Shown: positions 7,290-23,952 of the stretch, one piece after another
Numbering within the stretch: the first letter of the stretch is position 1
How the letters are laid out: each line of letters begins with the position of its first letter
DNA from: a virus
DNA: 25,451 nt
IMG/VR virus record: IMGVR_UViG_3300006104_001288
Coordinates: 1 to 25,451 of that record
Reading direction: 5' to 3' (one strand)
Program-made: the position numbers and the translations under genes
The notes under the pieces: generated by a model
Database searches by the model: none
The model's input: the letters and a program-made list of their open reading frames with translations, nothing else
Told to the model about the DNA's origin: nothing

Positions 7290-7304
7290 TAAGAAAGAAA
7301 ATAA

Positions 7305-10300: not shown

Positions 10301-10352
10301 ACTTGCCAGAAGTGTATTTAAGGATATCAATCGACCTGGGGCGGAGAAATGA
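7305..10352 (+). CDS. hsdR: Type I restriction-modification endonuclease/translocase subunit
   Basis: HsdR (1015 residues) pulls DNA through the complex using ATP and cuts far from the unmethylated site. The N-terminal PD-(D/E)xK nuclease shows D141 and E155-L-K157 (IDLVLF... and LELKTD). The SF2 translocase has Walker A SAGSGKS (about 314-320), the DEAH box at 427-430, motif III FTATPK, and motifs V and VI in ANKFQTGFDQP and QTLSRLNRT. All key residues are present and the length is normal. The C-terminal helical part follows a glycine-rich linker (GGGGAGSG). It is the third gene of an hsdM-hsdS-hsdR operon and its stop overlaps the next start as ATGA. Confidence 0.97.
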   Translation: MAIHNEIEFENDLCDYLKSHGWLYSRDDVGYDVERALFPEDLLGWIQDTQPEAWDRLKKFHNGKTESVALDRLVKVMETESSLHALRNGFKAAGAGAGGFDVVQFAPAHSFNPETKAAYDKIRLRVMRQVHYSAHNRNSIDLVLFVNGIPVATLELKTDFTQGIDDAKNQYKLDRNPKDPKTKHVEPLLQFKRGALVHFAVSTSEVWMTTKLTGMDTYFLPFNKGFNGGKGNPPNKEGYQTAYLWEEIFQKDQFLKILESFIQIERKEVVEKNGEKKVKETLIFPRYHQLDAVTKLVTAVKEEGAGKNYLFQHSAGSGKSNTIGWSAHKLATIHDSKDNKIFDTVIVITDRTVLDEQLQDTINQFSHTPGLVVSIDSENGSKSGQLVEALKSGAMIIVVTLQTFPFILREIRETTALAKRNFAVIADEAHSSQTGASAGKLRKVLSSEQVEVDEGETYEEYLERETASRSLPPNVSFLAFTATPKSKTLELFGRKDSNGIPRPFHQYTMKQAIQEGFILDVLQNYTPYKVAYKLAHNGKDWDDKDVDKSEAAKTIARWVRLHPHNISQKVQIIVEHFRANVAWRINGEAKAMVVTDSRQAAVRYKIEMDKYIQTQGYAKELATLVAFSGDVEDPEYGLEKFTEGNMNKQQKGMGIREAFSTEEFKVLIVANKFQTGFDQPLLMAMYVDKRIDGITAVQTLSRLNRTTFGKDITFVLDFVNDTETIRLAFEPYYATTELLATTDPNMVYDLETKLGKQGIYSEQDVKNFIEAYRKPKARQQDIQAALSLPVSRFNGLFTDAEEKDDKEELDRLALFEKDLGTFCRFYDFLSQVVNYADTALEAKYLFFRHLGPLIKPENRRLPIDLAGLEMTHYKLQAGAAQSIKLAGDVPIPGGGGAGSGTSKDPEVVRLEELLNKLNDLFPEITDTDRINLFNNAKTKMLDSEELRKQAHANTEDQFIQSPKFEEEMLDSLISSMDSHRAMTTKLLNDDKLRARFKDLLARSVFKDINRPGAEK

Positions 10353-10795
10353 AAACGCTTTACATTGACATGGACAACGTATTGGTGGATTTCCCATCTG
10401 GCATTGCAAGAACTCCAGAGCATGTGCAAGAACAGTACGAGGGGTGCCTAGACGAGGTTCCCGGGATCTTTTATTTAATGGATCCAATTCCAGGCGCAAT
10501 TGCTGCTTATGAAGAGTTGGCTACCATGTTCGATACCTACATTCTCTCAACAGCTCCCTGGGGAAATCCAAGTGCATGGTCTGATAAATTGCTGTGGGTA
10601 AAAGACTATCTAGGTAAACCAGCATATAAACGTTTAATCTTGAGCCACCATAAGAATCTTAATGATGGAGATTTCTTAGTTGATGATCGCCTTAAAAATG
10701 GCGTTGATCGATTTAAGGGTGAGCATATTCACTTTGCTACGCCCGAGTTTCCTGACTGGGAATCGGTAGTGAGCTATTTAAAGACCAAGGTCTAA
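10349..10795 (+). CDS. 5'(3')-deoxyribonucleotidase (NT5C-type HAD phosphatase)
   Basis: This 148-residue HAD-fold enzyme should dephosphorylate nucleoside, chiefly deoxyribonucleoside, monophosphates. HAD motif I is DMDNVLVDF, with nucleophile D7 and acid D9. Motif II is the ILSTAPWGNPSAW segment, motif III the lysine in RLILSHHK, and motif IV LVDDR. APWGNPSAW and SHHKN are characteristic of the bacterial NT5C family, and the size is slightly short of the usual 170-200. The start overlaps the hsdR stop (ATGA), so it is translationally coupled to a restriction operon. That is unusual for a nucleotide-pool enzyme and suggests a defence-linked or accessory role, which is inference. Confidence 0.85.
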   Translation: MKTLYIDMDNVLVDFPSGIARTPEHVQEQYEGCLDEVPGIFYLMDPIPGAIAAYEELATMFDTYILSTAPWGNPSAWSDKLLWVKDYLGKPAYKRLILSHHKNLNDGDFLVDDRLKNGVDRFKGEHIHFATPEFPDWESVVSYLKTKV

Positions 10796-10815: not shown

Positions 10816-11121
10816 TCATGGCCGACCTAACTCAACGCATCGTCTATTAAGATATTCATAAAGTTCAAATGCTTTAAGGTTTTCTGTGCCATTGATGCAG
10901 GGTACTGGGCCATAATTCAAATAATTAAATATTAAAGTATCAGCGCTAGCTGGTTGTACTCTGTACCTGCTTAGGAAATCATCCACAACCATTTTGCATG
11001 CTTCTATTGCTTCTCCTAGATCGTCAAATTCCCCAATGCGTACCCAAGGGTTCTGATAATTGTTTCTGTGGTCGCTAAATATATCAACACTAAATGGTTT
11101 CGATAGGTCCATTACTTCCAT
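10816..11121 (-). CDS. Hypothetical protein downstream of alpA
   Basis: Not recognised. I place the start at the ATG at 11121 because an AGGAG lies six bases before it, giving 101 residues (MEVMDLSKPFSVDIFSD...). A longer frame open to 11280 would overlap alpA. The protein is acidic to neutral with a central DLGEAIEACKMVVDDFL helix and no membrane segment. It is the last gene of the leftward small-ORF/alpA group and is convergent with the nucleotidase gene. A 10-bp palindrome (10803-10812) lies between the two genes but lacks a T tract. Confidence 0.6.
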   Translation of the reverse strand: MEVMDLSKPFSVDIFSDHRNNYQNPWVRIGEFDDLGEAIEACKMVVDDFLSRYRVQPASADTLIFNYLNYGPVPCINGTENLKAFELYEYLNRRCVELGRP

Positions 11122-11179
11122 AGTCATCTCCTGATTTTTCCGTAGGATCATTAGCTTAAACCCAGGAGATCCCCATTTT

Positions 11180-11380
11180 TCAATTAGTGGATTGCTTTGA
11201 CCTTTCTCGGATGAAGGTTTGGACCTGATCAATTGTCCAGAATGAGGATCGACCAATCTTAATCGGCTTAGGAAACTCACCTTTTTGAACCATCAGCCAA
11301 AACTTAGATTTTGAAATTGGCATGACTTCCAGGATCTGCGGAATTCGCATTAAGGTGACTTCTGATTTTGAATTACTCAT
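11180..11380 (-). CDS. alpA: AlpA-family transcriptional regulator
   Basis: This 66-residue protein is a MerR-like winged helix DNA-binding domain of the AlpA family. These regulators control integrase/excision or early genes in P4-like satellites, prophage CP4-57 and PICI-type islands. LMRIPQILEVMPISKSKFWLMVQKGEFPKPIKI is spread over residues 10-42 and shows the recognition helix and the FPKPIKIGRSS(F/R)W wing typical of the family. A perfect GGAGG precedes the ATG. It is transcribed away from the phage-like module, so the roughly 430-bp gap to the DUF1376 gene holds divergent control signals. Its actual target here (integrase, late genes, or excision) is not visible. Confidence 0.9.
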   Translation of the reverse strand: MSNSKSEVTLMRIPQILEVMPISKSKFWLMVQKGEFPKPIKIGRSSFWTIDQVQTFIRERSKQSTN

Positions 11381-11501
11381 GATTACCTCCTTGACGGGCG
11401 CGCTTCATATTTTTTCGATAAACCTGCAAAGCCATCTTTGCAGAACTCATTTTGGTGTAACCGTATGAACGATACAAACTGTAAAGCCGAATTGCTACCA
11501 T
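11373..11501 (-). CDS. Small basic protein upstream of alpA (42 aa)
   Basis: A short frame starting at the ATG at 11501, with GGAG nine bases before it, encodes a strongly basic peptide (MVAIRLYSLYRSYGYTKMSS...). It ends inside the alpA start region, an eight-base overlap that suggests translational coupling. The IRLYSLYRSYGYTK..A...A pattern looks like a small family seen near regulators in proteobacterial islands, from memory only. Function unknown. Confidence 0.5.
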   Translation of the reverse strand: MVAIRLYSLYRSYGYTKMSSAKMALQVYRKNMKRARQGGNHE

Positions 11502-11562
11502 CAAATTGTTCTCCATCTAGTTTTGTTATGTATCAATATGTGTGCTACTGAAGAGCAATGTA

Positions 11563-11597
11563 GTCAATGAAATTTTGATGGTCAATCAAATGTCAAT
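11563..11597 (-). promoter_or_regulatory. alpA-cluster promoter region with three ATTGAC repeats
   Basis: On the minus strand ATTGAC occurs three times (plus-strand GTCAAT at 11563, 11581 and 11592). Two of the copies also look like -35 boxes (TTGACA, TTGACT). The cluster lies 60-95 bp upstream of the small ORF before alpA, where a promoter and a regulator-binding site are expected. I cannot fix the -10 box. Confidence 0.4.
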
Positions 11598-11928
11598 ACC
11601 CACTTTGAAGACGCATATTAATTTTTGACTACAAAAAATTATTTATTCACATAAGTGCTACAGGCTAATCCCGTAAAGGGCTACAGCCTTGTCAGTATTT
11701 TCTGATGGCATAAGGAGAGCAGTGGACACACATAGATCAATTAACACTTCAAGAAGAAAAAATAAACAACTCAAATTTCTTAAAGATGGATTACAGAGAA
11801 TAAGTAAATAAATAAATTCAAAATAAATTCATAAAAAACACGTTTGACGATACGCTTTCCGATTGTTAGATTCATCTCTTGCGAAAAATCTTTAGCAAGA
11901 AAAAAGAACTACACGGAGACTGTTTTAG
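11598..11928 (+). promoter_or_regulatory. Control region before the phage-like operon (promoter 11844-11872, inverted repeat 11877-11900)
   Basis: This stretch has no long gene. A good rightward promoter is visible: TTGACG at 11844-11849, a 17-base spacer, and TAGATT at 11867-11872. It is followed directly by an inverted repeat (TCTTGC at 11877-11882, GCAAGA at 11895-11900) that would overlap the transcription start, a good operator position. Further upstream, AGGCT/AGCCT arms (11662-11666, 11685-11689) enclosing CCC/GGG could form a small hairpin. The rest is AT-rich. The next gene has a GGAGA ribosome-binding site. Confidence 0.5.
11722..11811 (+). CDS. Possible 29-aa basic peptide
   Basis: A GTG codon four bases after AGGAGA opens a 29-residue frame (MDTHRSINTSRRKNK...) that is rich in lysine and arginine. 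It lies upstream of the predicted phage-operon promoter. The ribosome-binding site is good but the frame is tiny and in AT-rich DNA. I recognise no family, so it could be chance. Confidence 0.25.
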   Translation: MDTHRSINTSRRKNKQLKFLKDGLQRISK

Positions 11929-12813
11929 ATGAACTACTACGAGCATCACATTGGGGATTATTCAGAAGCTACTGCGCATCTGACTTTTATTGAGGACTCA
12001 ACCTATAGCCGTCTCATTCGGAAGTATTACGCCACGGAAAAGCCGCTGCCAATCGATATGAAGACGGTCCAGAGATTAATCAATGCCAGATCAAAAGAGG
12101 AAAAAAATGCAGTTGTCTCAGTCCTTAATGAGTTTTTTACCCTCACAGACAATGGCTGGCGACAAGAGCGCTGTGACCATGAGATAGCTCGCTTTAAAGA
12201 CCGGCAATCCAAGGCTAGGCGGAGCGCTGAATGGAGGTGGCAGACATCTCCAGCAGAGCAAATACTGTCTGACAGTATGTCAAATTCAGCATGCAATCGC
12301 AATGCGAACGCATTGCCAACGCAATGCTCGCCAAACACCATACACCAAACACCAGTCACCAATCTCCATACTCCAAGCAAACAAAACAATGGGGGTGAAA
12401 AAGAAAAATGTCCGAACGATGATCTTGAGACAAGGCAGAAGATTGCCAATGTCTTTTCTGTTCATGGAGTGAGCATCACCCCTAAGGATGAAAAGATTGG
12501 GGAAATTGCAAAGCTCATGGCTGCAGAGGAAGAAATTCGGGAGGCGATAACCCAGGCAAAAGAAATGAGAAAAAAGGCTTCAAGTTCTACCCCCATCAAC
12601 CCGGGGCTAGTTCTAGCAATTCTCAAAGGAATGCGAAAAAAGATTCAAGGCCAAGAAAGCTCAGAGGATGCCTGGTGGAAAACCAATGAAGGCATAGATG
12701 CTAAAGGGCGAGAGCTTGATATGAGAGCCCAAGGTTCAGAAAGCTATGAATCATTCAAGGCAAGAATTCTTATTGAGTTACGTAAGCGTAAGGAGATGGC
12801 GAATGCTGGTTAA
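11929..12813 (+). CDS. DUF1376 (YdaU-like) phage replication-associated protein
   Basis: This 294-residue protein opens with the DUF1376 domain (NYYEHHIGDYSEATAHLTFIE, then LIRKYYATEKPLP and FFTLTDNGW, residues 1-80) found in YdaU of the Rac prophage and in many prophage early regions, where it often occupies the place of the O-type replication initiator. The C-terminal third (about 180-294) is helical and charged. Between them (about 105-165) is a low-complexity linker whose DNA contains dense palindromes and repeats (see separate entry). It is the first gene of the rightward module, and its end overlaps the next start. A replication role is inferred; the domain itself is not biochemically defined. 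Confidence 0.85.
   Translation: MNYYEHHIGDYSEATAHLTFIEDSTYSRLIRKYYATEKPLPIDMKTVQRLINARSKEEKNAVVSVLNEFFTLTDNGWRQERCDHEIARFKDRQSKARRSAEWRWQTSPAEQILSDSMSNSACNRNANALPTQCSPNTIHQTPVTNLHTPSKQNNGGEKEKCPNDDLETRQKIANVFSVHGVSITPKDEKIGEIAKLMAAEEEIREAITQAKEMRKKASSSTPINPGLVLAILKGMRKKIQGQESSEDAWWKTNEGIDAKGRELDMRAQGSESYESFKARILIELRKRKEMANAG
12262..12354. repeat. Palindrome and repeat cluster inside the DUF1376 gene, origin-like
   Basis: A 17-bp palindrome (ATACTGTC, one base, GACAGTAT, 12262-12278) is followed by alternating inverted copies of an 8-mer: GCAATGCG at 12299, CGCATTGC at 12309 and CGCAATGC at 12320. Two direct copies of CCAAACACCA follow at 12331 and 12345. The cluster lies in the linker-coding part of a replication-like gene, the place where lambdoid phages carry their origin within gene O. 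An origin function is inference. Confidence 0.45.
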
Positions 12814-13033
12814 CCAAACCTTAGCTGGAGTTGTTCATCGCCCTGATATGGAAGACTTTCCTATTGGGTCCATTGTTAAGACGCCTAGTGGGCGTGTAGG
12901 TACGGTCGTTAAGCATCGCGGTGCCCAAAGCCGACATGACTTATTCCAAAGAATCATCATCGAGTTTGAGGATCCGATAGGTGATTCAGTAGCACTTCAA
13001 CCCCACCTGCTGACGATGATCAAAAAACCATGA
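12803..13033 (+). CDS. Small hypothetical protein before the terminase genes
   Basis: Not recognised as a named family. The start at 12803 is chosen because GGAG lies seven bases upstream; it overlaps the DUF1376 gene by 11 bases. The 76 residues contain a compact strand-rich segment (FPIGSIVKTPSGRVGTVVKH, then IIIEFEDP) that looks like a small SH3-like barrel. The stop overlaps the next start as ATGA, so this gene and the terminase small subunit candidate are coupled. Confidence 0.65.
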   Translation: MLVNQTLAGVVHRPDMEDFPIGSIVKTPSGRVGTVVKHRGAQSRHDLFQRIIIEFEDPIGDSVALQPHLLTMIKKP

Positions 13034-13434
13034 TTGAAAACAATCAAAAGAAATCAAAGGGAGGTGCAAGGGCTGGAGCGGGTCGAAAGACTGGCAGCTT
13101 AACTAAACGAACCCGTCAGATAGCCGAAGCTGTTGCAACCCAAGGAATCACGCCCTTGGAAGTCATGATGAAGGTAATGCACCAACTTTATGAGGAGGCC
13201 GGCAACGTTAGCGAGCAAGATCTTGGCGATAAAGAGTTGGCAAGCGAAGCGAGAATCAAGCTCCTTAATATGGCAGCCACCGTTGGAAGGCATGCTGCAC
13301 CTTATGTTCATCCACGACTATCTGCTATTGAACATACTGGTAAGGATGGCGTGCCCCTACAAAGTGGCGTGTTAGTCGTGCCAAGTGCTATGAGTGTTGA
13401 GGATTGGGAAAGATCCGCCCAACCCAAGCATTAG
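13030..13434 (+). CDS. Putative terminase small subunit
   Basis: This 134-residue protein carries GGARAGAGRKTGSLTKRT at the N-terminus, a lysine/arginine/glycine-rich segment found in many phage packaging proteins. A helical core follows (ITPLEVMMKVMHQLY, then AAPYVHPRLSAIEHTG near 92-108). It directly precedes the large terminase gene, which supports a role in recognising the packaging site. The assignment rests on position plus these familiar motifs; the family is very diverse. Confidence 0.65.
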   Translation: MIENNQKKSKGGARAGAGRKTGSLTKRTRQIAEAVATQGITPLEVMMKVMHQLYEEAGNVSEQDLGDKELASEARIKLLNMAATVGRHAAPYVHPRLSAIEHTGKDGVPLQSGVLVVPSAMSVEDWERSAQPKH

Positions 13435-13451
13435 TGCAGTAAACGTAAGTC

Positions 13452-14759
13452 ATGAAAACCATCTGGGCGCCATTGCCCGGTAGCCAGACTTTGTTTCTGA
13501 CTTGCCCTGTATATGAAGTATTGCTTGAAGGTACTAGGGGAGGGGGTAAGACCGATACCTTACTGATGAGTTATGCCCAGCACGTAGGTAGAGGGTTTGG
13601 TGATCACTGGCGCGGCACACTCTTTCGATTGACCTATCCCCAGCTAGCTGACGTAGTAGCCAAGAGTAAGCGCTGGTTCTATCAGATCTTCCCGGGCGCA
13701 AAGTTCAATGAATCTGACTATGTCTGGAAATGGCCAACAGGAGAGATGCTGTATTTCCGTTATGGCGCTAACGAAGACGACTACTGGAATTACCATGGCC
13801 ACGAATACCCATGGCTAGGATTCGAGGAGTTAACCAACTGGCGAAATCTTTCTTTCTACGAAGCAATGCATTCCACTTGCCGGTCATCCCATCCCGGAAT
13901 GCCAAGAATGGTAAGGGCTACCTGCAATCCATTCGGAGTAGGTCATGCCTCTGTAAAGGAAAGATTTCAGATTGGAGCAATACCGGCAGGACAAATCATC
14001 AAACAAGAAGGCGCATTACCCAGAGTCAGAATTCATTCGACGATTTATGAGAACACACACCTACTCAAAAATGATCCCAACTACCTTATGAGCCTAGAGT
14101 CTCTGAGCGATCCAAACAGACGTAGAGCATGGTTAGAGGGGGATTGGGATATTCACGTGGGAAGTTTCTTGGAAGGCGTATGGCAGCCCTCTAAACACGT
14201 CATAGAGCCCTTCGCAATCCCACCAACATGGAAGGTTTGGCGCTCAATGGATTGGGGTTATGCAAGACCATATGCCGTTTACTGGTTTGCCTTATCTAAC
14301 GATGGAGTCTATTACCTATGGAGAGAGCTCTATGGATACGGCGATAAAGAAAACACCGGCACAAGAGAAGACGCAACGGTAGTTGCTGAAAAAATAAAGA
14401 AGATCGAAATTCACGATCAACGTCTTGGCTATGAATACCGAATGAACCTAGCTGACCCTTCCATCTTTTCAAAGATAGGCGCAGAAAGATCTATCGGCCA
14501 AATATTCAGAGACAAAGGCGTGAAGTGGACCGAAGCCTACAACGCCCCAAGAAGCAGGGTCAACGGCGCTCAAGAAATCATCCGACTGTTAGCTGAAGAC
14601 AGACTCAAGATCTTCTCAACCTGTAAGCACTGGTTAAGAACCATTCCTCAATTGCCACCAGATTCACTAAACCCAGAAGATGTAGACACTGATGCCGAAG
14701 ATCATGCTTGGGATGCAACAAGGTATGGAGTCATGCGGGCACGAAGGGTTGCAGAATAA
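13452..14759 (+). CDS. terL: Phage terminase large subunit
   Basis: TerL (435 residues) is the packaging motor that drives DNA into the prohead and cuts it. The N-terminal ATPase has Walker A EGTRGGGKT (26-34) and a Walker B-like strand with catalytic acids at WLGFEE (121-126). A coupling CNP motif is at 158-160. The C-terminal RNase H-like nuclease has SMDWGY (acid D267), ADPS (D335) and DAEDHAWDATRYG with D417 and D421. All motifs are present, so it looks functional. It lies between the small terminase candidate and the portal gene. Confidence 0.93.
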   Translation: MKTIWAPLPGSQTLFLTCPVYEVLLEGTRGGGKTDTLLMSYAQHVGRGFGDHWRGTLFRLTYPQLADVVAKSKRWFYQIFPGAKFNESDYVWKWPTGEMLYFRYGANEDDYWNYHGHEYPWLGFEELTNWRNLSFYEAMHSTCRSSHPGMPRMVRATCNPFGVGHASVKERFQIGAIPAGQIIKQEGALPRVRIHSTIYENTHLLKNDPNYLMSLESLSDPNRRRAWLEGDWDIHVGSFLEGVWQPSKHVIEPFAIPPTWKVWRSMDWGYARPYAVYWFALSNDGVYYLWRELYGYGDKENTGTREDATVVAEKIKKIEIHDQRLGYEYRMNLADPSIFSKIGAERSIGQIFRDKGVKWTEAYNAPRSRVNGAQEIIRLLAEDRLKIFSTCKHWLRTIPQLPPDSLNPEDVDTDAEDHAWDATRYGVMRARRVAE

Positions 14760-14807
14760 ATCCAAAATAAATTCTTAAGCTATTGCCCCTGAATTTATAA
14801 ATAGGGT

Positions 14808-16754
14808 GTGGCCCAAGACTCTAAAGCTCTTCAACAAAAATGGAATGCCCGCATTAAACATGCGCGCATTCATTGGGCGACTTTTCATAAGCGGGTAAAA
14901 CATAACCGCAATACCGTTTCTGGATTTAATTGGAACGCAGATCCTACTGGTAAGGAGTTCTATAGCCTAAGAGCAAATCTCATCCATGGAACTATCTCTG
15001 CTGTACTGCCTAACGTCTATGCTCGTAACCCAGAGATCTCAATTGCCCCAGCCCATTCGGGCGCGGACATCAAACTCTTTTGCAATACCCTAGAGAAGGT
15101 TACCAATAGGGCCTTAGAGCATGCCCAACTAAAGAATCGAGCTAAGTCCACAGTAAGAGCGGCTCTTACTTGCAGTTTCGGAATCTTAAAGGTGATGTAT
15201 CAAAGAGATGTAGACGAGGATGCTTATATTCAGGGGCGCATCAATGACCAACAAGAAAATAGATTGGCGATTAGAAATCTCAAGCAAGACCTGGAAGATG
15301 TCAGTCAGAAAAAACACCATGAAGAAAAAGGGATTGAATTAGAAGAGCAATTACTAGGCATACATGAGCAGTCAGAAGTCTGGTCTGCTGAGGGTCTAGT
15401 CATTGACAGGGTCCTTACAGAAAATCTTCTCATTGATCCATCCGTCTGCGAGTTTTGGGATTACACCGATGCAGACTGGATGTGCCAGGTCATCCCCATG
15501 AAGCGCGCGCAGGCCGAGGCTTTATATAAAAAGAATCTTGCTAGCGCTAAGATCTACCAAGCAGGCCAAAGCGAACCCTCGCACAAGAAGGCCAAGCGCT
15601 TAGCCTCAATGCAGCTGGAAACTGGGCCAGTTACAGATGACCAGCAAATTGCTGTTTTAGAAATCTGGGATAGAACTACTCAGCGTGTTTACACAATGGT
15701 GGAGGGCGCGACAGAGTGGCTGCGTGAACCATATTCGCCATCAAGAGCGGGTGAGCGCTGGTACCCGTTCTTCTTATTGCCTTACCAGGTAGTCGATGGG
15801 CAGTTTGTGGGGCCAAGCTTAGTAGATCTAACGGAGCGTTTACAAGACGAGCATAACGAAGCGCGCGATCGCTTTAATCAGCATCGAGACCTTTGTATCC
15901 CGGGGTGGGTTGCATCTGCAGACATTAACGAAAAGACAATTAAGAAGCACTCTGATTCAAGATTCGGTGAGATCACTATTGTTGATACTGAAGGCAAGCC
16001 ACTTAACCAAGTCATTATTCCTAGGGGTCACCCGAAGATAGATCCGGTCGTCTATGACACCAGCGCAGTACGTTATGACTGGGAGCAAGTCACCGGTCTA
16101 CAAGATGCAGCAAGGTCCACCGTAGTTAGACCAAAAACAGCCACCGAGGCAAATATTTTGCAAAGAGCCTTATCAGGGCGCGTATTTGAATTCAAAGACC
16201 AGATAGAAGATTGGTTGCAAGAGATAGCGCAATACAGCGCACAGGTTCTCTTGCAAGAACTCACCAAAGAACAGGTAGAGCGCTATATGGGCGCGCCAAT
16301 AACTAAAACAACTATGGTCGATGGCAAGCTCACCATAAGCAAAGAGAAAACCTATGATTGGCCAGAGCTAACTAAAGAGAGAATCTTTGACATGGTTGAT
16401 CTGCGTATTAGGGCGGGCACTACCGGAGCCCCTGATGGCATAGAGGAAAAAGAAGGTTGGCTCAAAGTGCTACCGATGGTTACCAGCCTATCTATCCAGA
16501 TGCAAAACCTACAAGCAAGAGGGATGGATTACGAACATATACGTAGTCTCCTACGAGAGACTCTCTTGCGATATGACGATCGTATCGATTCAAATCTATT
16601 TATGCCCAACGTTGCAAAACAAGCCGACGGATTCGTAGATCTACCACATGAAATTTCAATACATCGGCTATGGGAAATGAGTGCGGATAAGCAAAGTAAA
16701 CATCAATATTTAAAAGAGGAGACAGTAGATGACACAAGAAGTGAAAAACTTTAA
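14808..16754 (+). CDS. Phage portal protein
   Basis: The 648-residue product fits the P22-type portal, the dodecameric ring at one head vertex through which DNA passes. It follows terL and is of suitable size. Recognisable stretches include the conserved segment around LVDLTERLQDEHNEARDRFNQHRD (near residues 341-364) and the long helical region at 420-475 (KTATEANILQRAL). The start is a GTG; an in-frame stop at 14802 rules out anything upstream. No good Shine-Dalgarno sequence is visible, which is odd for a structural gene. The 3' end overlaps the next gene by 26 bases. Confidence 0.82.
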   Translation: MAQDSKALQQKWNARIKHARIHWATFHKRVKHNRNTVSGFNWNADPTGKEFYSLRANLIHGTISAVLPNVYARNPEISIAPAHSGADIKLFCNTLEKVTNRALEHAQLKNRAKSTVRAALTCSFGILKVMYQRDVDEDAYIQGRINDQQENRLAIRNLKQDLEDVSQKKHHEEKGIELEEQLLGIHEQSEVWSAEGLVIDRVLTENLLIDPSVCEFWDYTDADWMCQVIPMKRAQAEALYKKNLASAKIYQAGQSEPSHKKAKRLASMQLETGPVTDDQQIAVLEIWDRTTQRVYTMVEGATEWLREPYSPSRAGERWYPFFLLPYQVVDGQFVGPSLVDLTERLQDEHNEARDRFNQHRDLCIPGWVASADINEKTIKKHSDSRFGEITIVDTEGKPLNQVIIPRGHPKIDPVVYDTSAVRYDWEQVTGLQDAARSTVVRPKTATEANILQRALSGRVFEFKDQIEDWLQEIAQYSAQVLLQELTKEQVERYMGAPITKTTMVDGKLTISKEKTYDWPELTKERIFDMVDLRIRAGTTGAPDGIEEKEGWLKVLPMVTSLSIQMQNLQARGMDYEHIRSLLRETLLRYDDRIDSNLFMPNVAKQADGFVDLPHEISIHRLWEMSADKQSKHQYLKEETVDDTRSEKL

Positions 16755-18012
16755 CTCTGGAGTATTAACTAATGGGGGCTCCATTCAGAGGGTGCAAAAC
16801 CGTGAAGCAAAGAGAGAGGAAGAGCGCTTAAGAAAAGAAGCGGAAGAAAAGAACGCAGCTGAATCTGTTGCTCGGCGTCAAAAGGCAAAAGAAGAGCGCG
16901 CGATTGAATTAGCTGAGCAATCAAAAGCTCGGCAGCTTGCAGAAGAAGAAAAGCGAAGAAAGGCTGATGAGAAGGCTGCCCAAGATGAAGTTGCAAGATT
17001 GAAAGCAGTTGCAGATAAAGAAGCGGCCAGATTAGAAAGACAGCAAGACCTTGAGAGAAGAAATGCTGAGAGAGCTGCTGCCCAGCAACAAGAAGAGGCC
17101 AGGCGTAAGAGCCAGTCTGCTGCCTTATTGGATGATTTGGGTAAAGACGTTACCCCTGAAGAGGTTGATAGTTCCGAGGAGTCTGAAGAAGTGCAGGAGC
17201 CGATATTTGCACCAGTCAAAGGAGAGGTACAAATACCAGCTGAAGTCTCTTCATTTGATGCAAAGCAAGAATCAGGGCCGCTGATAGCCCACGATATCAG
17301 TGAGCTATTGCCACCACCTGCCGTCCTTACAGTTGAGTCTGAGTCACAAACCCCCATACAAGTTGAGAGTGGCAAAGAATTAATTGAAAGAGTTCTTCAC
17401 TCAACTGAGCAAGCTTCTGAAAATCAGCCCCAAGAAGTGGCGCAAACGAATCGTAGTGAAAATCGATATCAGAAGATCATCAATACCAACCGAGAGCTTG
17501 CAAAAGAAAACGATTCTCTCAAGTCAAAGGTTGAAGATCTCCTTGATAAGCTTCATGGCTATGAGATTGAAGGTGAGCTGGTAGGTAGCATCATGACCTC
17601 GGTTGATCGAAACAAGAGAGAGAAATGGCGTGAGAAGAGTGAGGCTAACTACTTAAAGAATGATCGCTGGAGTGTTATTGATGAGGCCAAGAAAGAGATC
17701 CTGAACTATCTCTCCACGCGTCATGGTGAGGTTGATTATTTAGATAAGTCACAGCTATTTCTAAAGTACATGCAAGATCCTTTCTATATGAATGTCTTCG
17801 TACAGAACCATCAAGTTTCGCAATGGTGGCCTACGATAGATGCGATATATAACTCGATTGATCTACAGCCAAAAGACTGGTCTAAGGTAAAGCCTATAAG
17901 CTATAAACCTCAACCTATTCGGGCGAGAACGGCTACTCTAGGGGCGCCAGTAGCGAGCTCTGAAGAGCCAATGGATCGGATTGCCCAGCATCTAGGCAAT
18001 ATGGGGATTTAG
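16729..18012 (+). CDS. Coiled-coil protein, candidate head scaffold
   Basis: The 427-residue protein has a very long charged helix (about 20-135, rich in E, K, R and A with heptad-like repeats), then a disordered acidic and proline-rich middle (140-220), a second predicted coil (235-280), and a more globular C-terminal region (290-427) with several tryptophans. Placed between portal and major capsid and preceded by AGGAG, it has the position and character of an assembly scaffold as in P22. No direct sequence family is recognised, so the role is inferred from order and composition. Confidence 0.6.
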   Translation: MTQEVKNFNSGVLTNGGSIQRVQNREAKREEERLRKEAEEKNAAESVARRQKAKEERAIELAEQSKARQLAEEEKRRKADEKAAQDEVARLKAVADKEAARLERQQDLERRNAERAAAQQQEEARRKSQSAALLDDLGKDVTPEEVDSSEESEEVQEPIFAPVKGEVQIPAEVSSFDAKQESGPLIAHDISELLPPPAVLTVESESQTPIQVESGKELIERVLHSTEQASENQPQEVAQTNRSENRYQKIINTNRELAKENDSLKSKVEDLLDKLHGYEIEGELVGSIMTSVDRNKREKWREKSEANYLKNDRWSVIDEAKKEILNYLSTRHGEVDYLDKSQLFLKYMQDPFYMNVFVQNHQVSQWWPTIDAIYNSIDLQPKDWSKVKPISYKPQPIRARTATLGAPVASSEEPMDRIAQHLGNMGI

Positions 18013-18013
18013 T

Positions 18014-18604
18014 TTATTGCCTAGCAAATAGCATTAAGGGCGCGATATCGCCGTTATCTGCGGCGCGTAGAGCTGATAAGTAGTTTTGGCGTGTAGTACC
18101 TGGGGTGGCAATTGAAGGGTTGCCACCCCAAGAAAATCTTTTACCACCAAGGCTGACAATCAGAGCATCTGCTATCAATCGTGCATGACGACCATTGCCA
18201 TTTGGAAACGCATGGATCAGCACTAACTGATGATGAAACCGCACTACGATTTCATCAATGGGCATCGTTTTATTTTCAATTTGATAAGCAGTGTTATCTA
18301 AAAGATTTTTGAGGGCAACAGCAATTTGAGTCCAATCAATGCCAATGCTCTTAGCGCTCTTTCTGAATGTGCCAGCCCACTGCCATGTTTGATTAAACAT
18401 GCGGCTATGCAAATTACGTACCAACCCCTCATTCAGACTTTGAATGATCTTTTGACGAGCAATCCAATCCGCACCTTCGACAATATTGAGTTCTTCCCAA
18501 GCATTTAATTCAGCTTGAGTCTTAATATGCGCTGGAATGAGACCAAGAGCTTCATCCGGATCAATCGGAGTAGCTCCTGGTGGATATTCAAACTGCATCA
18601 CCAT
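18014..18604 (-). CDS. Mobile mystery protein B (Fic-domain protein)
   Basis: This 196-residue Fic/DOC-fold protein is the typical partner of mobile mystery protein A (TIGR02613). The Fic core motif is HAFPNGNGRHAR at 131-142, with catalytic H131 and the GNGR loop. The usual acidic D/E before GNGR is N135, as in other members of this family, so AMP-transfer chemistry may be altered. It starts four bases after an AAGGA site and overlaps the mobile mystery A gene by seven bases. It sits antisense in the middle of the head module, only one base from the scaffold gene's end, so it is late-acquired cargo. Confidence 0.88.
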   Translation of the reverse strand: MVMQFEYPPGATPIDPDEALGLIPAHIKTQAELNAWEELNIVEGADWIARQKIIQSLNEGLVRNLHSRMFNQTWQWAGTFRKSAKSIGIDWTQIAVALKNLLDNTAYQIENKTMPIDEIVVRFHHQLVLIHAFPNGNGRHARLIADALIVSLGGKRFSWGGNPSIATPGTTRQNYLSALRAADNGDIAPLMLFARQ

Positions 18605-19056
18605 AGATTCCTTCTAGGGCCGTCCAAAATCTCTTTTGCTAGTAGTTGAAGTTGCTTTTCACTGGCAGACTTATCCACTGACTGATTCTCAAGACTCATC
18701 GAATGAGAAATAGGACGGAGTCTTTCACGCGCAACCGTAATAGCGCGATCTTCCAAGATTTCTTCTAAAGATTTGCGTGGCACTAGGGTGTATTGCAATT
18801 CGCAATCTAAGGCGCTAGCCAACTTGCGCAGGCTAGCTAAAGTGATCTTTTCATCAGCCTCAGCCTTTTCAAGCTTAGCAATGCTATGTGGCGTAACACC
18901 GAGCTTTCGAGCCAGCGCAGAAGCCGACATACCCAAAGATTCGCGAATAGCCTTAACCCACCCATTTCCTGGGCGGCTTGGGGGGCGAGCATCCCTTAAC
19001 TTAGTAAGGGCAGAATCCATTTGATGGAGTTGTAAGTTAGCGAATTTCTTGTTCAT
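18598..19056 (-). CDS. Mobile mystery protein A (XRE-type HTH regulator)
   Basis: The 152-residue protein has the TIGR02612 layout. An N-terminal leader (about 1-30) with LHQMDSALTKLRDARPPSRPGNGW precedes an XRE helix-turn-helix (about 33-90) with SASALARKLGVTPHSIAKLEKAEA, then a tail. Such proteins accompany Fic protein B in mobile DNA and likely act as autorepressor/antitoxin-like partner, which is inference. Its promoter region carries three palindromes with exact 33-bp spacing. The ribosome-binding site (AGGT) lies within the closest one, so binding could block both transcription and translation. Confidence 0.88.
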   Translation of the reverse strand: MNKKFANLQLHQMDSALTKLRDARPPSRPGNGWVKAIRESLGMSASALARKLGVTPHSIAKLEKAEADEKITLASLRKLASALDCELQYTLVPRKSLEEILEDRAITVARERLRPISHSMSLENQSVDKSASEKQLQLLAKEILDGPRRNLW

Positions 19057-19089
19057 ATTGATACCTATAGGTATTAATTAATATATCTA

Positions 19090-19119
19090 ATTGTAACCTA
19101 TAGGTATAAATTAATACAA
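19090..19119 (-). promoter_or_regulatory. Promoter of the mobile mystery A/B pair
   Basis: On the minus strand TTGTAT (19119-19114) and TACAAT (19095-19090) are separated by 18 bases. The central operator fills the spacer, so a bound repressor would exclude RNA polymerase. The predicted start near 19083 gives a short leader before the ATG at 19056. Confidence 0.5.
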
Positions 19120-19120
19120 T
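19091..19120 (+). promoter_or_regulatory. Opposed rightward promoter candidate leading to the capsid gene
   Basis: Because the array is symmetric, TTGTAA (19091-19096) and TACAAT (19115-19120) with an 18-base spacer form a promoter-like pair facing right. It overlaps the leftward one. Transcripts would start in the third operator and run through a leader of about 380 bases into the capsid gene. Confidence 0.35.
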
Positions 19121-19191
19121 AAAATGATACCCATAGGTATCAAATAGCTATAAGAATGAGGGGCTTTAGACTAAATAACAACGTCATTCCG

Positions 19192-19500
19192 TCAAGGGCA
19201 CCCCAAAGGGGTGGCTTGCGAACCCTTGATGGGCACGACTAAGGAAACGCTCTTTTATGCCCAAGGTGGCGCAATGACACATTGGGCATAAAGACAACTC
19301 GCGAACAACAAAAACCCCAGAAATATTCAAACCAAGCTTGTGCAGCCCCAATAATCAATACACGTAGCAAGAGTTAATAGCTCTAGCTACTGATTCATCT
19401 CACGCGTTATAGCTAGAGTCGCGTCTAGTAGCGTAGTAATGGATAGTTTCACGCCCTATCAATCAAGATGAATCTAACTAATTCATAAACATAGATAGGG
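19192..19500 (+). ncRNA. Structured leader upstream of the major capsid gene
   Basis: This gene-free stretch holds four stems. Stem 1 is nested: TCAAGGG/CCCTTGA (19192, 19223) around CACCCC/GGGGTG (19199, 19208). Stem 2 is a perfect 10-bp TTATGCCCAA/TTGGGCATAA (19255, 19282). Stem 3 is CTCTAGCTA/TAGCTAGAG (19381, 19410). Stem 4 is CCCTATC/GATAGGG (19454, 19494), and its right arm contains most of the capsid ribosome-binding site AGGGG, so it could hide it. No T tract follows any of them, so none is a plain terminator. I match it to no known RNA family. Confidence 0.5.
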
Positions 19501-19507
19501 GTGGCAT

Positions 19508-20554
19508 ATGCCAATTTCAAATACAGACTTGCAAGAGTTAGCTAAGGTCTCCTTAGATGAATACTTGCGCAATCTTCCAGTAGATCAAATAGCAGTAGAG
19601 AGACCTTTTCTCAAGAAATTGATGCAAGGGCGTAAGAGCCTATTAGGTGCCAAGCAAAACGTTGTTGAGAACATTCGCAAGGAATATGGAAGTAACTTCA
19701 CCTGGGCCTTTGGGGAGGAGACCGTTAAGTTCAATAAGCGCAATACCACTGAGCAAGCCTCATTCCCATGGCGCAGAGCCGTTGATGGCCTCTATATAGA
19801 CTATGACCGCTTATTCAGTAACGGCATTAAGGTCAGAGAAGGCGGGGCGCGAGGCTTCCAGTTGGAATACAACGAGCGTGTACAACTCATTAACTTGCTT
19901 GATGAGCAGTTAGAAGTTCTGCGAGAGGGCTTTCTCAATAAGCTAGACCTGGAGCTTCATCGTGATGGCTCACACGGCGCCGATGCGGTAGTCGGCTTGG
20001 ATAGCCTAGTCAGCCTAGCACCGGATGCTGGTACGGTAGGTGGTATCGATCGAGCAAAAGCAAGTTACTGGCGTAACTACGCAGTCAAAGACATCGTTTC
20101 AACCACGCCAGGTAATTTAGTGAGCGAGATGGAAACTGCATGGCGTCAATGTATTAAGCATGGAGGAAGCCCTGATTTCATCATCGCCGGAGGAAAGTTC
20201 ATTGATACCTATCGCAAACAGGTGACAGTGACTCATATCGCTGGATCAGGCGAGACTAAGTACATCGATGCTGGGGTAGGTGCTGGAGTAAATACGGGTC
20301 TGGCCTTCAAGGGAGTGGAGATCATCTGGGATCCCCAGTTTGATGAACTTGATGCTATGGCTAATCGCACAGTGGAGTGGAGTAAGCGTTGCTATTTCCT
20401 CAACACTCGCTTTATGAAACTACGAGATGACGATTTAGATATTGTTGCCCCAATCCGTCCGCACGACACACTCGCCATGTATGCCATGGTGAACCTACGC
20501 TGTGCTTTATCTATTTCAAGAGCTAATGCCCATGCGGTATTAGCCATTCAATAA
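19508..20554 (+). CDS. Phage major capsid protein
   Basis: The 348-residue protein is the likely major coat protein. The elements NTTEQASFPWRRAVDGLYI (about 78-96), DLELHRDGSHGADAVVGLDSLVS (about 147-169), VGGIDRAKASYWRNY (about 177-191) and the C-terminal MKLRDDDLDIVAPIRP are like those of HK97-fold coat proteins, where the GGIDRA...WRN step is widespread. It follows portal and scaffold candidates. There is no N-terminal prodomain and no maturation protease gene nearby, so the head would use a separate scaffold. AGGGG lies six bases upstream of the ATG. Confidence 0.85.
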   Translation: MPISNTDLQELAKVSLDEYLRNLPVDQIAVERPFLKKLMQGRKSLLGAKQNVVENIRKEYGSNFTWAFGEETVKFNKRNTTEQASFPWRRAVDGLYIDYDRLFSNGIKVREGGARGFQLEYNERVQLINLLDEQLEVLREGFLNKLDLELHRDGSHGADAVVGLDSLVSLAPDAGTVGGIDRAKASYWRNYAVKDIVSTTPGNLVSEMETAWRQCIKHGGSPDFIIAGGKFIDTYRKQVTVTHIAGSGETKYIDAGVGAGVNTGLAFKGVEIIWDPQFDELDAMANRTVEWSKRCYFLNTRFMKLRDDDLDIVAPIRPHDTLAMYAMVNLRCALSISRANAHAVLAIQ

Positions 20555-20565
20555 GGGAGATCAAT

Positions 20566-20952
20566 ATGAACCACAAAGAACTTATTCACAGCGACTTCCA
20601 AATTAAAGAGGTAGAGGCGGTAGTGCGTAGAGATGCATTCACGACCATTCATGTACACGTGCCGCCGTATGAGACAAACATCCTGCGAAATCTATTCGGG
20701 CGGGAGAACGTCACGGTGTTCGAGCGCCCATCAAAGACCACTATTACTCCAGAACAGGAGTACGACAGACTCTGCGCCAAATATGGACATGAAGTAGTGG
20801 CCAAAGTCTTTGGTGAGGATGACGGTGATCGCTTAATGGAAATAGTAGAGGCGCTAATGGCTGAAGGAAAGCTCCCGGCTCACGAGCAAACATTGGAAAA
20901 AGCTCATGAGCCAGAGGCAACACCAGAAAGCAAAGGAGCCAAGAAACGCTAG
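20566..20952 (+). CDS. Unknown protein after the capsid gene
   Basis: Not recognised. The 128 residues start well (GGGAGA site five bases before the ATG) with a strand-rich N-terminal half (IHVHVPPYETNILRNLFG) and a helical C-terminal half ending in a charged, disordered tail (PEATPESKGAKKR). Directly downstream of the coat gene in the same direction it could be a head decoration or head-completion protein, but nothing in the sequence fixes that. Confidence 0.6.
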   Translation: MNHKELIHSDFQIKEVEAVVRRDAFTTIHVHVPPYETNILRNLFGRENVTVFERPSKTTITPEQEYDRLCAKYGHEVVAKVFGEDDGDRLMEIVEALMAEGKLPAHEQTLEKAHEPEATPESKGAKKR

Positions 20953-20965
20953 CAGTAGGGAAGAT

Positions 20966-21082
20966 CACCGCTGGCGGCCGGTGTTTGGGTGCGGCTGTGG
21001 GTGTTGAAGTAACGATGGTGTGTGGGCGCGCGTAACTGCGCCCCACTGCCAACACTAATTAAAAGCCTAGGCGGTAGTGGGG
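20966..21082 (+). ncRNA. GC-rich structured segment with competing hairpins before the holin gene
   Basis: This gap (20953-21126) is far more GC- and GT-rich than its surroundings. CACCG/CGGTG (20966, 20979) forms a small stem. GGGCGC/GCGCCC (21024-21029, 21038-21043) forms a second. CCCCACTGCC/GGTAGTGGGG (21041-21050, 21073-21082, one G-U) forms a third that shares three bases with the second, so they cannot coexist. This is switch-like geometry, but no ligand or known class is evident. Confidence 0.4.
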
Positions 21083-21126
21083 CGGTGGACTTTCATATTC
21101 CAAGCATCAAGAAAAGAACCTATTAC

Positions 21127-21663
21127 ATGCTTCCAATCATCACCTCTCTAGTGCAAACCTTGGCCGTCAATGGCCTTGGGCTACTTGCGGGCGCGGTCCA
21201 AGCCAAAGGGAAGGAATTCATTGAGAGCAAGATTGGTGTGCGCATTCCGGAGAATCCCAGTCAGGAAGATTTAATCAAGCTCAAACAATTAGAGATTGAG
21301 CAAGAGCAGCTTCTGTTGCAATACACCCTTAAGCAAAAAGAACTTGAGATAGAAGAATCAAAGCTACTAGCTGAGATGCATCGAGCTTCACAAGAGAATA
21401 TTACACACCGATGGCAGTCCGATATGGGTAGCGATTCCAAGCTATCCAAGAACATCAGACCGGGAACACTTGTTTACATTCTGACTGCTTATCTTCTATT
21501 CGCACTTCTTTCAGCAATGGGGATAGACATCAATGAAGCCTATGTAAAGCTGCTAGGCGAGTGGGGGCAGCTAGTCATGCTCGCTTACTTTGGCGGAAGG
21601 TCTGTTGAGAAGATCTTTGAGATGCGCATGCATAGCTCAAATAAAAAAGAAGAGCAGGCATGA
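21127..21663 (+). CDS. 3TM-type phage holin
   Basis: I take the ATG at 21127 as the start (178 residues), because the 35 residues upstream in this frame lie in the structured GC-rich gap and do not look like protein. The N-terminus has a hydrophobic stretch (about 4-24), then a long charged coil (45-95, KQLEIEQEQLL...). The C-terminal part has SKLSKNIRPGTLVYILTAYLLFALL, and after a short loop YVKLLGEWGQLVMLAYFGGRS at about 139-159. RP..L and YFGGRS.EKI are typical of the three-transmembrane holin group also found in gene transfer agents. It should open the inner membrane for lysis. The endolysin gene follows with an overlap. Confidence 0.8.
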   Translation: MLPIITSLVQTLAVNGLGLLAGAVQAKGKEFIESKIGVRIPENPSQEDLIKLKQLEIEQEQLLLQYTLKQKELEIEESKLLAEMHRASQENITHRWQSDMGSDSKLSKNIRPGTLVYILTAYLLFALLSAMGIDINEAYVKLLGEWGQLVMLAYFGGRSVEKIFEMRMHSSNKKEEQA

Positions 21664-21998
21664 GTGGTTTAGTGGCAGAACAAGCAGCATTCCTTATTGA
21701 TGTTAGTCGCCTCATCCAATTTGCAACTGCAGAAGGATGGGTGGTTACAGGAGGTGAGCTGTGGAGGTCTCCAGAACAGCAGGAGATCTACTTTAAAAGC
21801 GGTAGATCTAAGACCATGAATAGTAATCATTTGAGACGCTGCGCTATAGACCTGAATTTCTTCTGGAATGGAAAGCTAGTCTGGGATAAAGAGCTCATTC
21901 GTACTGTAGGCGAATACTGGGAGAGCCTAGACCCTAAGAATAGATGGGGCGGAAATTTCAAGGGTTTTGTGGATGTACCGCATTTTGAGAGGCTATAG
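21660..21998 (+). CDS. M15-family peptidase endolysin
   Basis: This 112-residue zinc peptidase belongs to the VanY/Ply-like M15 group that cuts peptidoglycan peptide cross-links. Metal ligands are visible as H57 (in NSNHLRRCAID), D64, and H108 (in DVPHFER), with general base E110 and R36 near the substrate pocket. The usual SxHxxG is N-x-H-L-R-R here; the glycine is replaced. The start overlaps the holin stop (ATGA), a compact lysis cassette. There is no signal peptide, so export relies on the holin. Confidence 0.88.
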   Translation: MSGLVAEQAAFLIDVSRLIQFATAEGWVVTGGELWRSPEQQEIYFKSGRSKTMNSNHLRRCAIDLNFFWNGKLVWDKELIRTVGEYWESLDPKNRWGGNFKGFVDVPHFERL

Positions 21999-22083: not shown

Positions 22084-22836
22084 ATGGCTAAGCCTTTTAA
22101 AGACTATGAACGTCCACCAATTACCGAGGCGGTAATTGCTTTAAATTTCAAATCTAGCATTGGATTTGAAGATTTAACTTCAGTTAGTAAAAAATATCTA
22201 AAAGATTACCCCCAAACAGCCTCTGTTTCTAATGTTCATTTAGCGGTGGATATGAGCAGTTCGGGTAATGAAGGCCCTGTCTCAACTAGTATGAATCAGC
22301 AGAACGGCTTGCGGCTTTCATCCAATGATATGACTGAGATAATGGTCTTGTGGCCACAATCATTTGCTATCTCTCAGTTGGCCCCATATGTAGGTTGGGA
22401 AACTTTTTTAAATCGGTTTATTAGGGACTGGAAAAGATATAAGCGCCATATTGGTCAAAAAGAAATTTCGCGCATTGGTGTTAGATATATCAATCGAATT
22501 GATATTCCCGTTGCTAACGATATTGTGGAGCACGAGAAGTACTTAAATGTATTTCCTAAGCTTCCAGCCTCTTTTACGCCTTTAACTGCGTTTGCAGTTC
22601 AGACAGCATTAAAAATTCCTGATATTGGTTGTGATTTGTTATTGAACTCTGCAGCTGCACCATCACCAGTTCTTGACCATGCAAGTTTTATGCTAGATTT
22701 AGATATTTACAAGTCAATAGATCTACCTCAAAGTGACCAGCAGATTATTAATTTGCTTAATAGCATCCGCCAAAAAAAGAACCAAATTTTTGAGCAATGT
22801 ATTAGCAATCGCGCAAGAAAGCTTTTTAGGAAATAA
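22084..22836 (+). CDS. TIGR04255 family protein
   Basis: The 250-residue protein starts with YERPPITEAVIALNF, close to the family's PPL-EAV signature, and contains RIGVRYINRIDIP (about 136-148), matching the usual R.GLRY.NRI segment. The remainder alternates strands and helices, ending in a basic SNRARKLFRK helix. TIGR04255 members are sporadically distributed in bacteria and mobile DNA and have no proven function. It heads three overlapping genes between the phage lysis genes and the integrase. Its stop overlaps the next start by one base. Confidence 0.8.
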   Translation: MAKPFKDYERPPITEAVIALNFKSSIGFEDLTSVSKKYLKDYPQTASVSNVHLAVDMSSSGNEGPVSTSMNQQNGLRLSSNDMTEIMVLWPQSFAISQLAPYVGWETFLNRFIRDWKRYKRHIGQKEISRIGVRYINRIDIPVANDIVEHEKYLNVFPKLPASFTPLTAFAVQTALKIPDIGCDLLLNSAAAPSPVLDHASFMLDLDIYKSIDLPQSDQQIINLLNSIRQKKNQIFEQCISNRARKLFRK

Positions 22837-23525
22837 TGAATAGCCCCTTAAAAAAGATTTTGTCTAGTCAGGTTGAAAATGTAATGTCAGCAAAAGATAG
22901 GGCTGGACTTTCTTTTTTTATTTCTCAGGCTGCGGATCAGTGGGGTAATTCAATATATGGCGATTTAAATTCAAATTTAATTAGCTCAAATACTAGCCAA
23001 TTTCAAAAGACCATTCATAACCTTACGAGCATAAGGTCCCCGTCAGCTCAAGTGGTGAGCAACAGCAAATCCTTACCCGAGAAAATTTATGATGCTACAG
23101 CTGAAGTAAAAATTCTTACTGCGCAGGTTGCTATGTATTTAACTCGCTCTTGGAGGGATCGAGTATTTAAACAGATTGATCATTTGCACGATCTTAGCGA
23201 ATGGGATTTAGATGCAAATCCCATTCAAAAAGAATCTTTTAGAACTTTTTTAAAGGCAATGATTGCTCTGAAACCTACCGAACACCCCGGATTGGGTCTT
23301 TCTGATAAGGGCTTTCTACTTGCAGCATGGATTTCGGATAATAGTCGCTTAACCACAGAATTTTTGCCTAACGATCAAATTAAATGGTCTCTTTCGGTTT
23401 GGGTGGGGTCCGATGATGAGGTAGATCGCGCGGCAGGAATTACCAGTACTGCAAGACTTCTATCTCGTCTATCACCTTATACACCTGAGAAATGGTTTTA
23501 TGACAAAGCCACAAAAAAGAGGTGA
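22836..23525 (+). CDS. Unknown cassette protein 2
   Basis: Not recognised. The 229 residues appear largely helical, with no membrane segment or known catalytic motif. Notable are SPSAQVVSNSKSLPEKIYDATAEVK in the middle and KWSLSVWVGSDDEVDRAAG near the C-terminus. It is coupled to the TIGR04255 gene (TAATG) and its end overlaps the next gene by 26 bases, so the three products are made together and probably act together. Base composition is AT-rich like its neighbour. Confidence 0.65.
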   Translation: MNSPLKKILSSQVENVMSAKDRAGLSFFISQAADQWGNSIYGDLNSNLISSNTSQFQKTIHNLTSIRSPSAQVVSNSKSLPEKIYDATAEVKILTAQVAMYLTRSWRDRVFKQIDHLHDLSEWDLDANPIQKESFRTFLKAMIALKPTEHPGLGLSDKGFLLAAWISDNSRLTTEFLPNDQIKWSLSVWVGSDDEVDRAAGITSTARLLSRLSPYTPEKWFYDKATKKR

Positions 23526-23952
23526 TTTAATACCCGACGATGATGAGGTTGTCCGACATGTTCCTTATCGAAAAATAATATTCGATCAAAATGAGAACAT
23601 TGTCGGAATTTTTCCTCATGCCTATCATTTGCGGGATGGTGAGACACATTTATCTGTTAGCTGGCTTAACTACCATAGCGGAACAAGGCTAGATAGATTA
23701 CGAGGCGTTCTAGTCGGCCTGAGAGCATCAAAAGATATCGGTGCTAAAAGTGCTCTAACTTCCGGTTATGTTTTATCGTTAAAAAATGTAGCCCAAAAAG
23801 CTGCAAATGTGAATTTACGTTTTTCTTATGCCCCTAGCGTAGAAGATAAAGCACATTCATTTATTCATAATATAAAAAATGATGACAATGACTTACTTGA
23901 GGCATTGGCTGCGGAAGGATTTACCAACATAAAGCAGGTCCGTGATCTTTAG
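23500..23952 (+). CDS. Unknown cassette protein 3
   Basis: The 150-residue protein opens with DLIPDDDEVVRHVPYRKI and then AYHLRDGETHLSVSWLNYHSG (about 41-61). The P...VVR.V, AF.LR..E..LSV.WLE pattern recalls a widespread uncharacterised bacterial family, from memory. No catalytic motif is assigned. It starts within gene 2 of the cassette, and the frame ends just 17 bases before the convergent integrase gene. Confidence 0.65.
   Translation: MTKPQKRGDLIPDDDEVVRHVPYRKIIFDQNENIVGIFPHAYHLRDGETHLSVSWLNYHSGTRLDRLRGVLVGLRASKDIGAKSALTSGYVLSLKNVAQKAANVNLRFSYAPSVEDKAHSFIHNIKNDDNDLLEALAAEGFTNIKQVRDL

Follow-up and report, generated by a model that had tools for sequence, protein, structure and literature searches.

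A probable family of podovirus-type capsid-forming satellites in Polynucleobacter

What kind of element encodes a phage head and its own lysis genes, and no tail? The question is raised by a 25,451-base stretch of viral DNA (IMG/VR record IMGVR_UViG_3300006104_001288, positions 1 to 25,451; the whole stretch is referred to here as the window). An original prediction, made from the sequence, had read positions 11180–21998 as the head-and-lysis module of a candidate capsid-forming satellite, integrated in ssrA of a probable betaproteobacterium. Our analysis indicates that the window is a complete integrated element and probably a functional member of a phage-satellite family of Polynucleobacter. 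We consider it likely that this family consists of integrative, podovirus-type, capsid-forming satellites that package their own DNA, bring their own lysis genes and depend on a helper for the tail.

A tail-less element integrated in ssrA

An exact-repeat search of the window identified identical 59-bp direct repeats at 41–99 and 25332–25390. The element spans 41–25390, with one repeat unit of 25,291 bp (25.3 kb), and the 3' part of ssrA closes the right end of the window at 25385–25451, as determined by a match to the Rfam transfer-messenger RNA (tmRNA) model. The repeats and the tmRNA match bear out the proposed ssrA integration. Copies that are 96–99% identical identify the host as Polynucleobacter (Betaproteobacteria), in agreement with the predicted host group. 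Like capsid-forming satellites, the element is a mobile island with attachment (att) sites and an integrase. The predicted span thus captured the conserved core, but the whole element is wider. Its boundaries and core genes are as follows.

41–99, no strand: attL, 59-bp direct repeat identical to attR (exact repeat)
11180–11380, minus: AlpA-type regulator or excisionase (PF05930, E 7.7e-5, above cut-off; phrog_9834, 2.1e-8)
11929–12813, plus: replication (primosomal, DUF1376) protein (PF07120, 1.2e-29; primosomal PHROGs down to 2e-29)
12746–13033, plus: conserved 95-amino-acid (aa) core protein (core cluster; homologues in tailed relatives)
13030–13434, plus: candidate small terminase subunit, TerS (phrog_15261, 3.7e-15; weak match to phrog_5334, terminase small subunit, 0.077; position)
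13452–14759, plus: large terminase subunit, TerL (phrog_2, 6.6e-35; Walker A at residue 27; strongly constrained, see below)
14808–16754, plus: portal (phrog_12082, 3.6e-14; weak P22_portal and SU10_portal matches)
16729–18012, plus: scaffold candidate (located between portal and coat; charged composition of low complexity; core cluster)
19508–20554, plus: major capsid (coat) protein, podovirus type (NF033394, 5.7e-86, 288.5 bits against a cut-off of 80; phrog_9953, 1.7e-35)
20566–20952, plus: conserved 128-aa protein following the coat (core cluster; conserved in tailed relatives)
21022–21663, plus: holin (phrog_3427, 1.2e-11; 20/20 elements)
21660–21998, plus: M15-type endolysin (PF13539, 4.3e-10, above cut-off; phrog_465, 5.1e-18; 20/20 elements)
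23970–25307, minus: tyrosine integrase, ssrA-specific version (phrog_1, 2.5e-50; PF00589, PF13356 and PF22022)
25332–25390, no strand: attR, overlapping the last 6 bases of ssrA (exact repeat; tmRNA match)
25385–25451, minus: 3' part of the host ssrA (tmRNA), the integration site (RF00023, positions 306–374 of 374)

The genes named in the prediction (AlpA, a replication-like gene, both terminase subunits, portal, scaffold candidate, coat, holin and endolysin) are all present in intact frames, TerS being called from a weak match and its position. The scaffold candidate matches no family and was assigned by position and composition. Family searches found no tail, neck, fibre or protease match among the window proteins, as had been claimed, and the coat, holin and endolysin matches confirm a head type different from that of known capsid-forming islands, together with dedicated lysis genes. 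Genes from the replication protein to the scaffold candidate are closely packed or overlapping, and the gap between scaffold and coat is occupied by a reverse-strand HTH/Fic gene pair.

Descent of the tail-less lineage and the search for tails

A coat scan of viral contigs returned 64 loci: 43 at 95% identity or more, 3 near 80% and 18 below 79%. Holin and lysin genes without a tail gene were found in 22/22 of the loci that combine a coat of at least 95% identity with at least 3 kb of downstream sequence (22 of the 43). All 18 loci below 79% carry tail-type genes without the satellite's lysis genes; they are located on phages of about 40 kb and on prophages of Burkholderiales. In this sister lineage, the coat and 128-aa genes are followed by a block that includes fibre-like genes, genes for a 235-aa adaptor and for a gp10-like protein, other genes, and one that encodes a protein of 1,800–3,000 aa. 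The structural model of the adaptor (mean predicted local distance difference test score (pLDDT) 79) matches podophage portal–tail adaptors, for example those of VP1, SU10 and N4. The gene order of the window had been described as P22-like; the head is indeed of podovirus type, but this adaptor resembles those of SU10, VP1 and N4. The portal of the element is 56–62% identical to portals of the tailed sister phages, with many invariant residues. A close relative with the same module plus a tail block, the arrangement expected if the window were a deleted prophage, was found in 0/22 loci, and the satellite reading survives.

A TerL scan of genomes pointed to Polynucleobacter as the host genus, in which 30 of 186 species contain a full-length coat gene (96–99% identical; 34 copies). 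Cut or decayed coat pieces occur in five further species. Clustering of 20 elements defined a core of 12 genes (integrase, AlpA, replication protein, 95-aa gene, TerS, TerL, portal, scaffold, coat, 128-aa gene, holin and endolysin); any other cluster is present in at most 10 of the 20. The proposed comparison of synteny across islands therefore shows a single core, with cargo in fixed slots. Repeats define the ends of ten elements, which measure 25.3 (the window), 26.4, 27.0, 27.3, 28.0, 31.0, 35.4, 37.2, 43.9 and 66.0 kb. Elements integrate at ssrA or at tRNA-Ser genes, where other copies also have exact att repeats. The window integrase is 87–97% alike in other ssrA elements and 25–29% alike in tRNA-Ser elements, and integration modules have therefore been swapped on one core. 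Phage and plasmid collections contained no close coat relative (the best about 26% and 36%), and no published description of the family was found in the open-access literature, subscription papers not being covered.

All core genes are under purifying selection, with synonymous divergence (dS) near or beyond 1 per site, or saturated. Median pairwise ratios of non-synonymous to synonymous divergence (dN/dS) are 0.014 for the coat, 0.015 for TerL, 0.030 for the lysin, 0.033 for the holin, 0.057 for the portal and at most 0.13 for the others. Trees of the coat and of the portal place the tail-less elements in a single clade (support 100/100), apart from the podophages of about 40 kb; this clade takes in members of the group with an 80% identical coat (L036–L038). 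Because purifying selection at a dS of about 1 coincides with a single fully supported clade, the tail-less elements are a long-lived lineage of single origin and not a set of recent deletions. They are maintained as a lineage distinct from phages, as expected of satellites.

These results bear on the simplest alternative, that the element is a decaying podophage lysogen that has lost its tail block. Burkholderiales sister phages and prophages do combine this head order with a tail block, and degenerate copies occur, such as that of P. sphagniphilus (G014), which shows fragments and a stop in its coat. Yet the tail-less state is confined to one clade and is intact in 30 species at dN/dS values of 0.014–0.13, and a conserved lysis module stands where the tail block would be. 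Purifying selection, the single clade and the lysis module rule out a deleted prophage; as a general account a defective prophage is already contradicted, and we regard it as very unlikely.

Could the tail genes be present, within the element or at another chromosomal site, and have escaped recognition, which would make this a whole phage of an unusual type? Assignments are lacking for two small core genes and a number of cargo genes, which leaves room for such a tail. However, the 95-aa and 128-aa genes also occur in tailed relatives beside those phages' own tail block, and therefore neither replaces a tail. Cargo is not conserved, and searches for podovirus tails in the chromosomes were empty: across the 186 Polynucleobacter species, the gp10-like protein (positive control, 9/9 tailed relatives), the adaptor profile and PF11134 each scored 0/186, and a tape-measure family exceeded the cut-off in 2/186. 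We consider a hidden tail extremely unlikely, and the element lacks the adaptor, tail and ejection genes of a complete podophage or prophage. Two candidates for missing tail parts were rejected. The AlphaFold model of the 128-aa protein (mean pLDDT 74), considered as a neck protein, had no PDB match at E ≤ 0.001. In a PHROGs scan of 69 non-core proteins (internal cargo of at least 110 aa, one per cluster, genome G008 excluded, plus five window proteins), no tail family appeared among 25 listed of the 56 families.

Several observations on individual relatives stand apart. Loci L036, L037 and L038 represent a second tail-less lineage (coat 80%, G+C 0.41), and in two of the three an M15 lysin follows the 128-aa gene. 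Four genomes (G011, G013, G024 and G149) have two full-length coat copies each; G011 has one element at ssrA and another at tRNA-Ser. Two elements (the G013b region, L145–L146, and the G023 region, L234–L236) carry an in-frame TerL insert of about 330 aa at HEY/WLGFEE, the Walker B motif, with intein-like ends: it begins with Cys and ends with Asn before Cys.

Cargo slots and defence genes

Cargo occupies the same slots across elements: left of AlpA, between TerL and portal, between scaffold and coat, and between lysin and integrase. In the window, the non-core genes are the following.

253–1371, plus: left cargo protein, also in other elements (homologues in 4/20 elements)
1299–2192, plus: left cargo, C-terminal fragment of a SNF2 helicase similar to ZorD, lacking the N-terminal part (PADLOC ZorD, 3.1e-126, profile positions 685–971 of 1012)
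2244–4112, minus: left cargo, putative defence protein, DUF262-like (a name of our own; PADLOC HEC-06, 4.2e-35, Orf5, SspE)
4249–10352, plus: left cargo, type I restriction–modification system, hsdM 4249–5982, hsdS 5982–7289 and hsdR 7305–10352 (PADLOC type I methyltransferase, specificity and restriction endonuclease models)
10349–10795, plus: left cargo, 5' nucleotidase-like (NT5C) gene (PF06941, 6.2e-13; in 6/20 elements)
10816–11280, minus: small protein adjoining AlpA, not universal (cluster in 10/20 elements)
18014–19056, minus: Fic-domain protein and HTH partner, a toxin–antitoxin or defence candidate (PF02661, 4.2e-11; PF01381, 2.2e-10)
22084–23952, plus: right cargo, three genes, the first of the TIGR04255 family (2e-36), the other two unmatched

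The ZorD-like fragment corresponds to the C-terminal third of a truncated defence gene and overlaps the preceding open reading frame; genome G004 has a longer homologue that is 98% alike. The HTH/Fic pair is found at the same place in 6 of the 20 elements. Defence models matched by non-core proteins include retron or reverse transcriptase, AbiE, AbiL, AriA and restriction–modification systems, among others. One element, in Polynucleobacter sp. MWH-Jannik1A5 (G008; L129–L131), has 52.6 kb of metabolic genes between TerL and portal, including lactate permease, FAD-linked oxidase, ribonucleotide reductase and nitrate reductase alpha, which represents either a huge cargo or a chromosomal rearrangement.

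This density of anti-phage systems, with head proteins homologous to those of likely predators, is what one might expect of a defence island that uses its coat, scaffold and portal proteins as weapons to poison podophage assembly. That account leaves the conservation of TerL, TerS, integrase, replication and lysis genes as one set unexplained, and we judge it highly improbable.

A proposed borrowed tail, and known satellites compared

On balance we favour a more specific version of the satellite reading: a separate family whose members assemble and fill podovirus-type heads of their own, bring about lysis themselves, have a short tail assembled stepwise from helper proteins on the satellite portal, and move large anti-phage blocks across the genus. 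The absent tail block in close relatives, selection on the head genes and the single old tail-less clade support the capsid-forming satellite that had been proposed. We infer a trigger, excision, packaging, particle formation and the use of helper tails. On a trigger, AlpA would rise and the integrase would excise the element from ssrA; the DUF1376 protein would recruit replication, scaffold, coat and portal would build proheads, and TerS and TerL would fill these with element DNA. Holin and the M15 endolysin would then open the cell. A co-infecting podophage of the sister lineage would supply adaptor and tail, because the element's heads are without both; its neck adaptor, tail and ejection proteins would assemble on the element's portal. 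Anti-phage systems in the cargo slots would pay the host. The islands thus probably spread by completing particles with the tails of other viruses.

Some points weigh against this. No particle, excised circle or transfer is on record, and none of 25 satellite-type contigs had the terminal repeat of an excised or circular copy. Element sizes vary widely (25.3 to 43.9 kb, plus one of 66 kb) and are not fitted to a small capsid, and the 128-aa gene has no assignable role. The core contained no recognisable CI/Stl-type repressor, and a promoter scan did no better than shuffles. Finally, a helper prophage with a compatible neck, suggested as a check, was not found in the same genomes across the 186 species (adaptor, gp10-like protein and PF11134, all zero). 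Tailed helpers are thus unlikely to be resident prophages, and a helper from outside is more likely.

Alternatively, tail-less heads and lysis might release DNA that reaches new cells without any phage tail, for example by natural competence. The element's own holin and endolysin and the missing helper prophage suit this route, and there is a precedent in a satellite described as transferred by competence after lysis (PMC13376191). With naked DNA as the vehicle, however, packaging and portal genes would not need such strong selection, and we think this route unlikely.

For the helper-dependent satellite, circumstantial evidence points to a helper candidate, IMGVR_UViG_3300038704_000011, a phage contig of 47.2 kb in which near-duplicate ends flank a unit of about 40.7 kb. 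Its source metagenome also yielded satellite contigs L013 and L055. The phage contig has a G+C of 0.47 and, among the tailed relatives compared, the tetranucleotide profile nearest to Polynucleobacter (r 0.76–0.79; others ≤0.59). Its TerL (G193, L328–L330) is 42% like that of the satellites, compared with 75–79% in most sister phages, although portal and coat do not depart from the usual type. A hint of expression comes from genome G025, which carries the P. asymbioticus diagnostic sequence and in whose element hsdS and hsdM come after AlpA. In the P. asymbioticus proteome, AlpA (Pnuc_1131, log2 1.79) and an N-6 methylase (Pnuc_1133, 1.76) rank among the 50 proteins with the largest increase after ultraviolet irradiation (PMC7522526, Table 1C; the panel header prints 4 °C and down-regulated, and we followed the legend). 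We tentatively assigned both proteins to the G025 element by gene order and approximate position. P. asymbioticus is a culturable host for testing the family.

The nearest tailed relatives, Burkholderiales sisters L040, L047 and L051 (Quisquiliibacterium, Pusillimonas and Achromobacter), share the order TerS–TerL–portal–scaffold–coat–128-aa gene, with coat identities of 62–75%. They differ in what follows the coat: fibre, adaptor, gp10-like, ejection and 1,800–3,000-aa genes, in place of the satellites' holin, endolysin and integrase. P4-like satellites and proteobacterial phage-inducible chromosomal islands (PICIs) have an integrase, AlpA, a replication gene and defence cargo, as the element does, but take the helper's capsid; the element has its own coat, portal and TerL. 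Tail theft has been described for satellites with long-tailed helpers, in which head and tail are each completed before they are joined. In podophages the tail is built up on the portal itself, and helper parts would therefore have to fit the satellite portal one by one. If true, this would be a sharp form of molecular compatibility that can be tested. A common family with dense anti-phage cargo in an abundant freshwater genus would also offer a path for the exchange of islands that has been reported for Polynucleobacter (PMC5644125).

The Streptomyces satellites MulchRoom and MiniFlayer likewise encode terminases, portal, scaffold and coat, and MulchRoom has an integrase and apparently uses its helper's long tail (PMC10690885). 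They have siphovirus helpers, a head-to-tail adapter and no primase homologue (PMC10690885), whereas the element is of podovirus type, lacks an adaptor and has replication and lysis genes. Summaries of the capsid-forming PICIs (cf-PICIs; Alqurainy et al. 2023) in PMC10690885 and PMC13230959 describe an HK97-type coat (PF05065), a head maturation protease, head–tail connectors and an HNH nuclease beside the terminase. In those summaries, cf-PICIs resemble the element as integrated islands with their own terminases, portal and coat and no tail; the element has all of these (TerS by weak match and position), would package itself and would borrow tails. Its coat has no PF05065 match and instead matches the NF033394 podovirus capsid; the head module contains no protease family and has a scaffold candidate instead; no connector, adaptor or closure match was found except the portal's own weak similarity, and the sister-phage adaptor is absent; and no core protein has an HNH match. 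Compared with cf-PICIs as summarised, the element also has its own holin and endolysin, and the family spans 25–44 kb with large cargo. A search confined to the known parts of cf-PICIs would be expected to overlook it. Because the coat is different and protease and connectors are missing, the element is not a cf-PICI; we place it as a variant among capsid-forming satellites, with the logic of cf-PICIs and lysis genes added.

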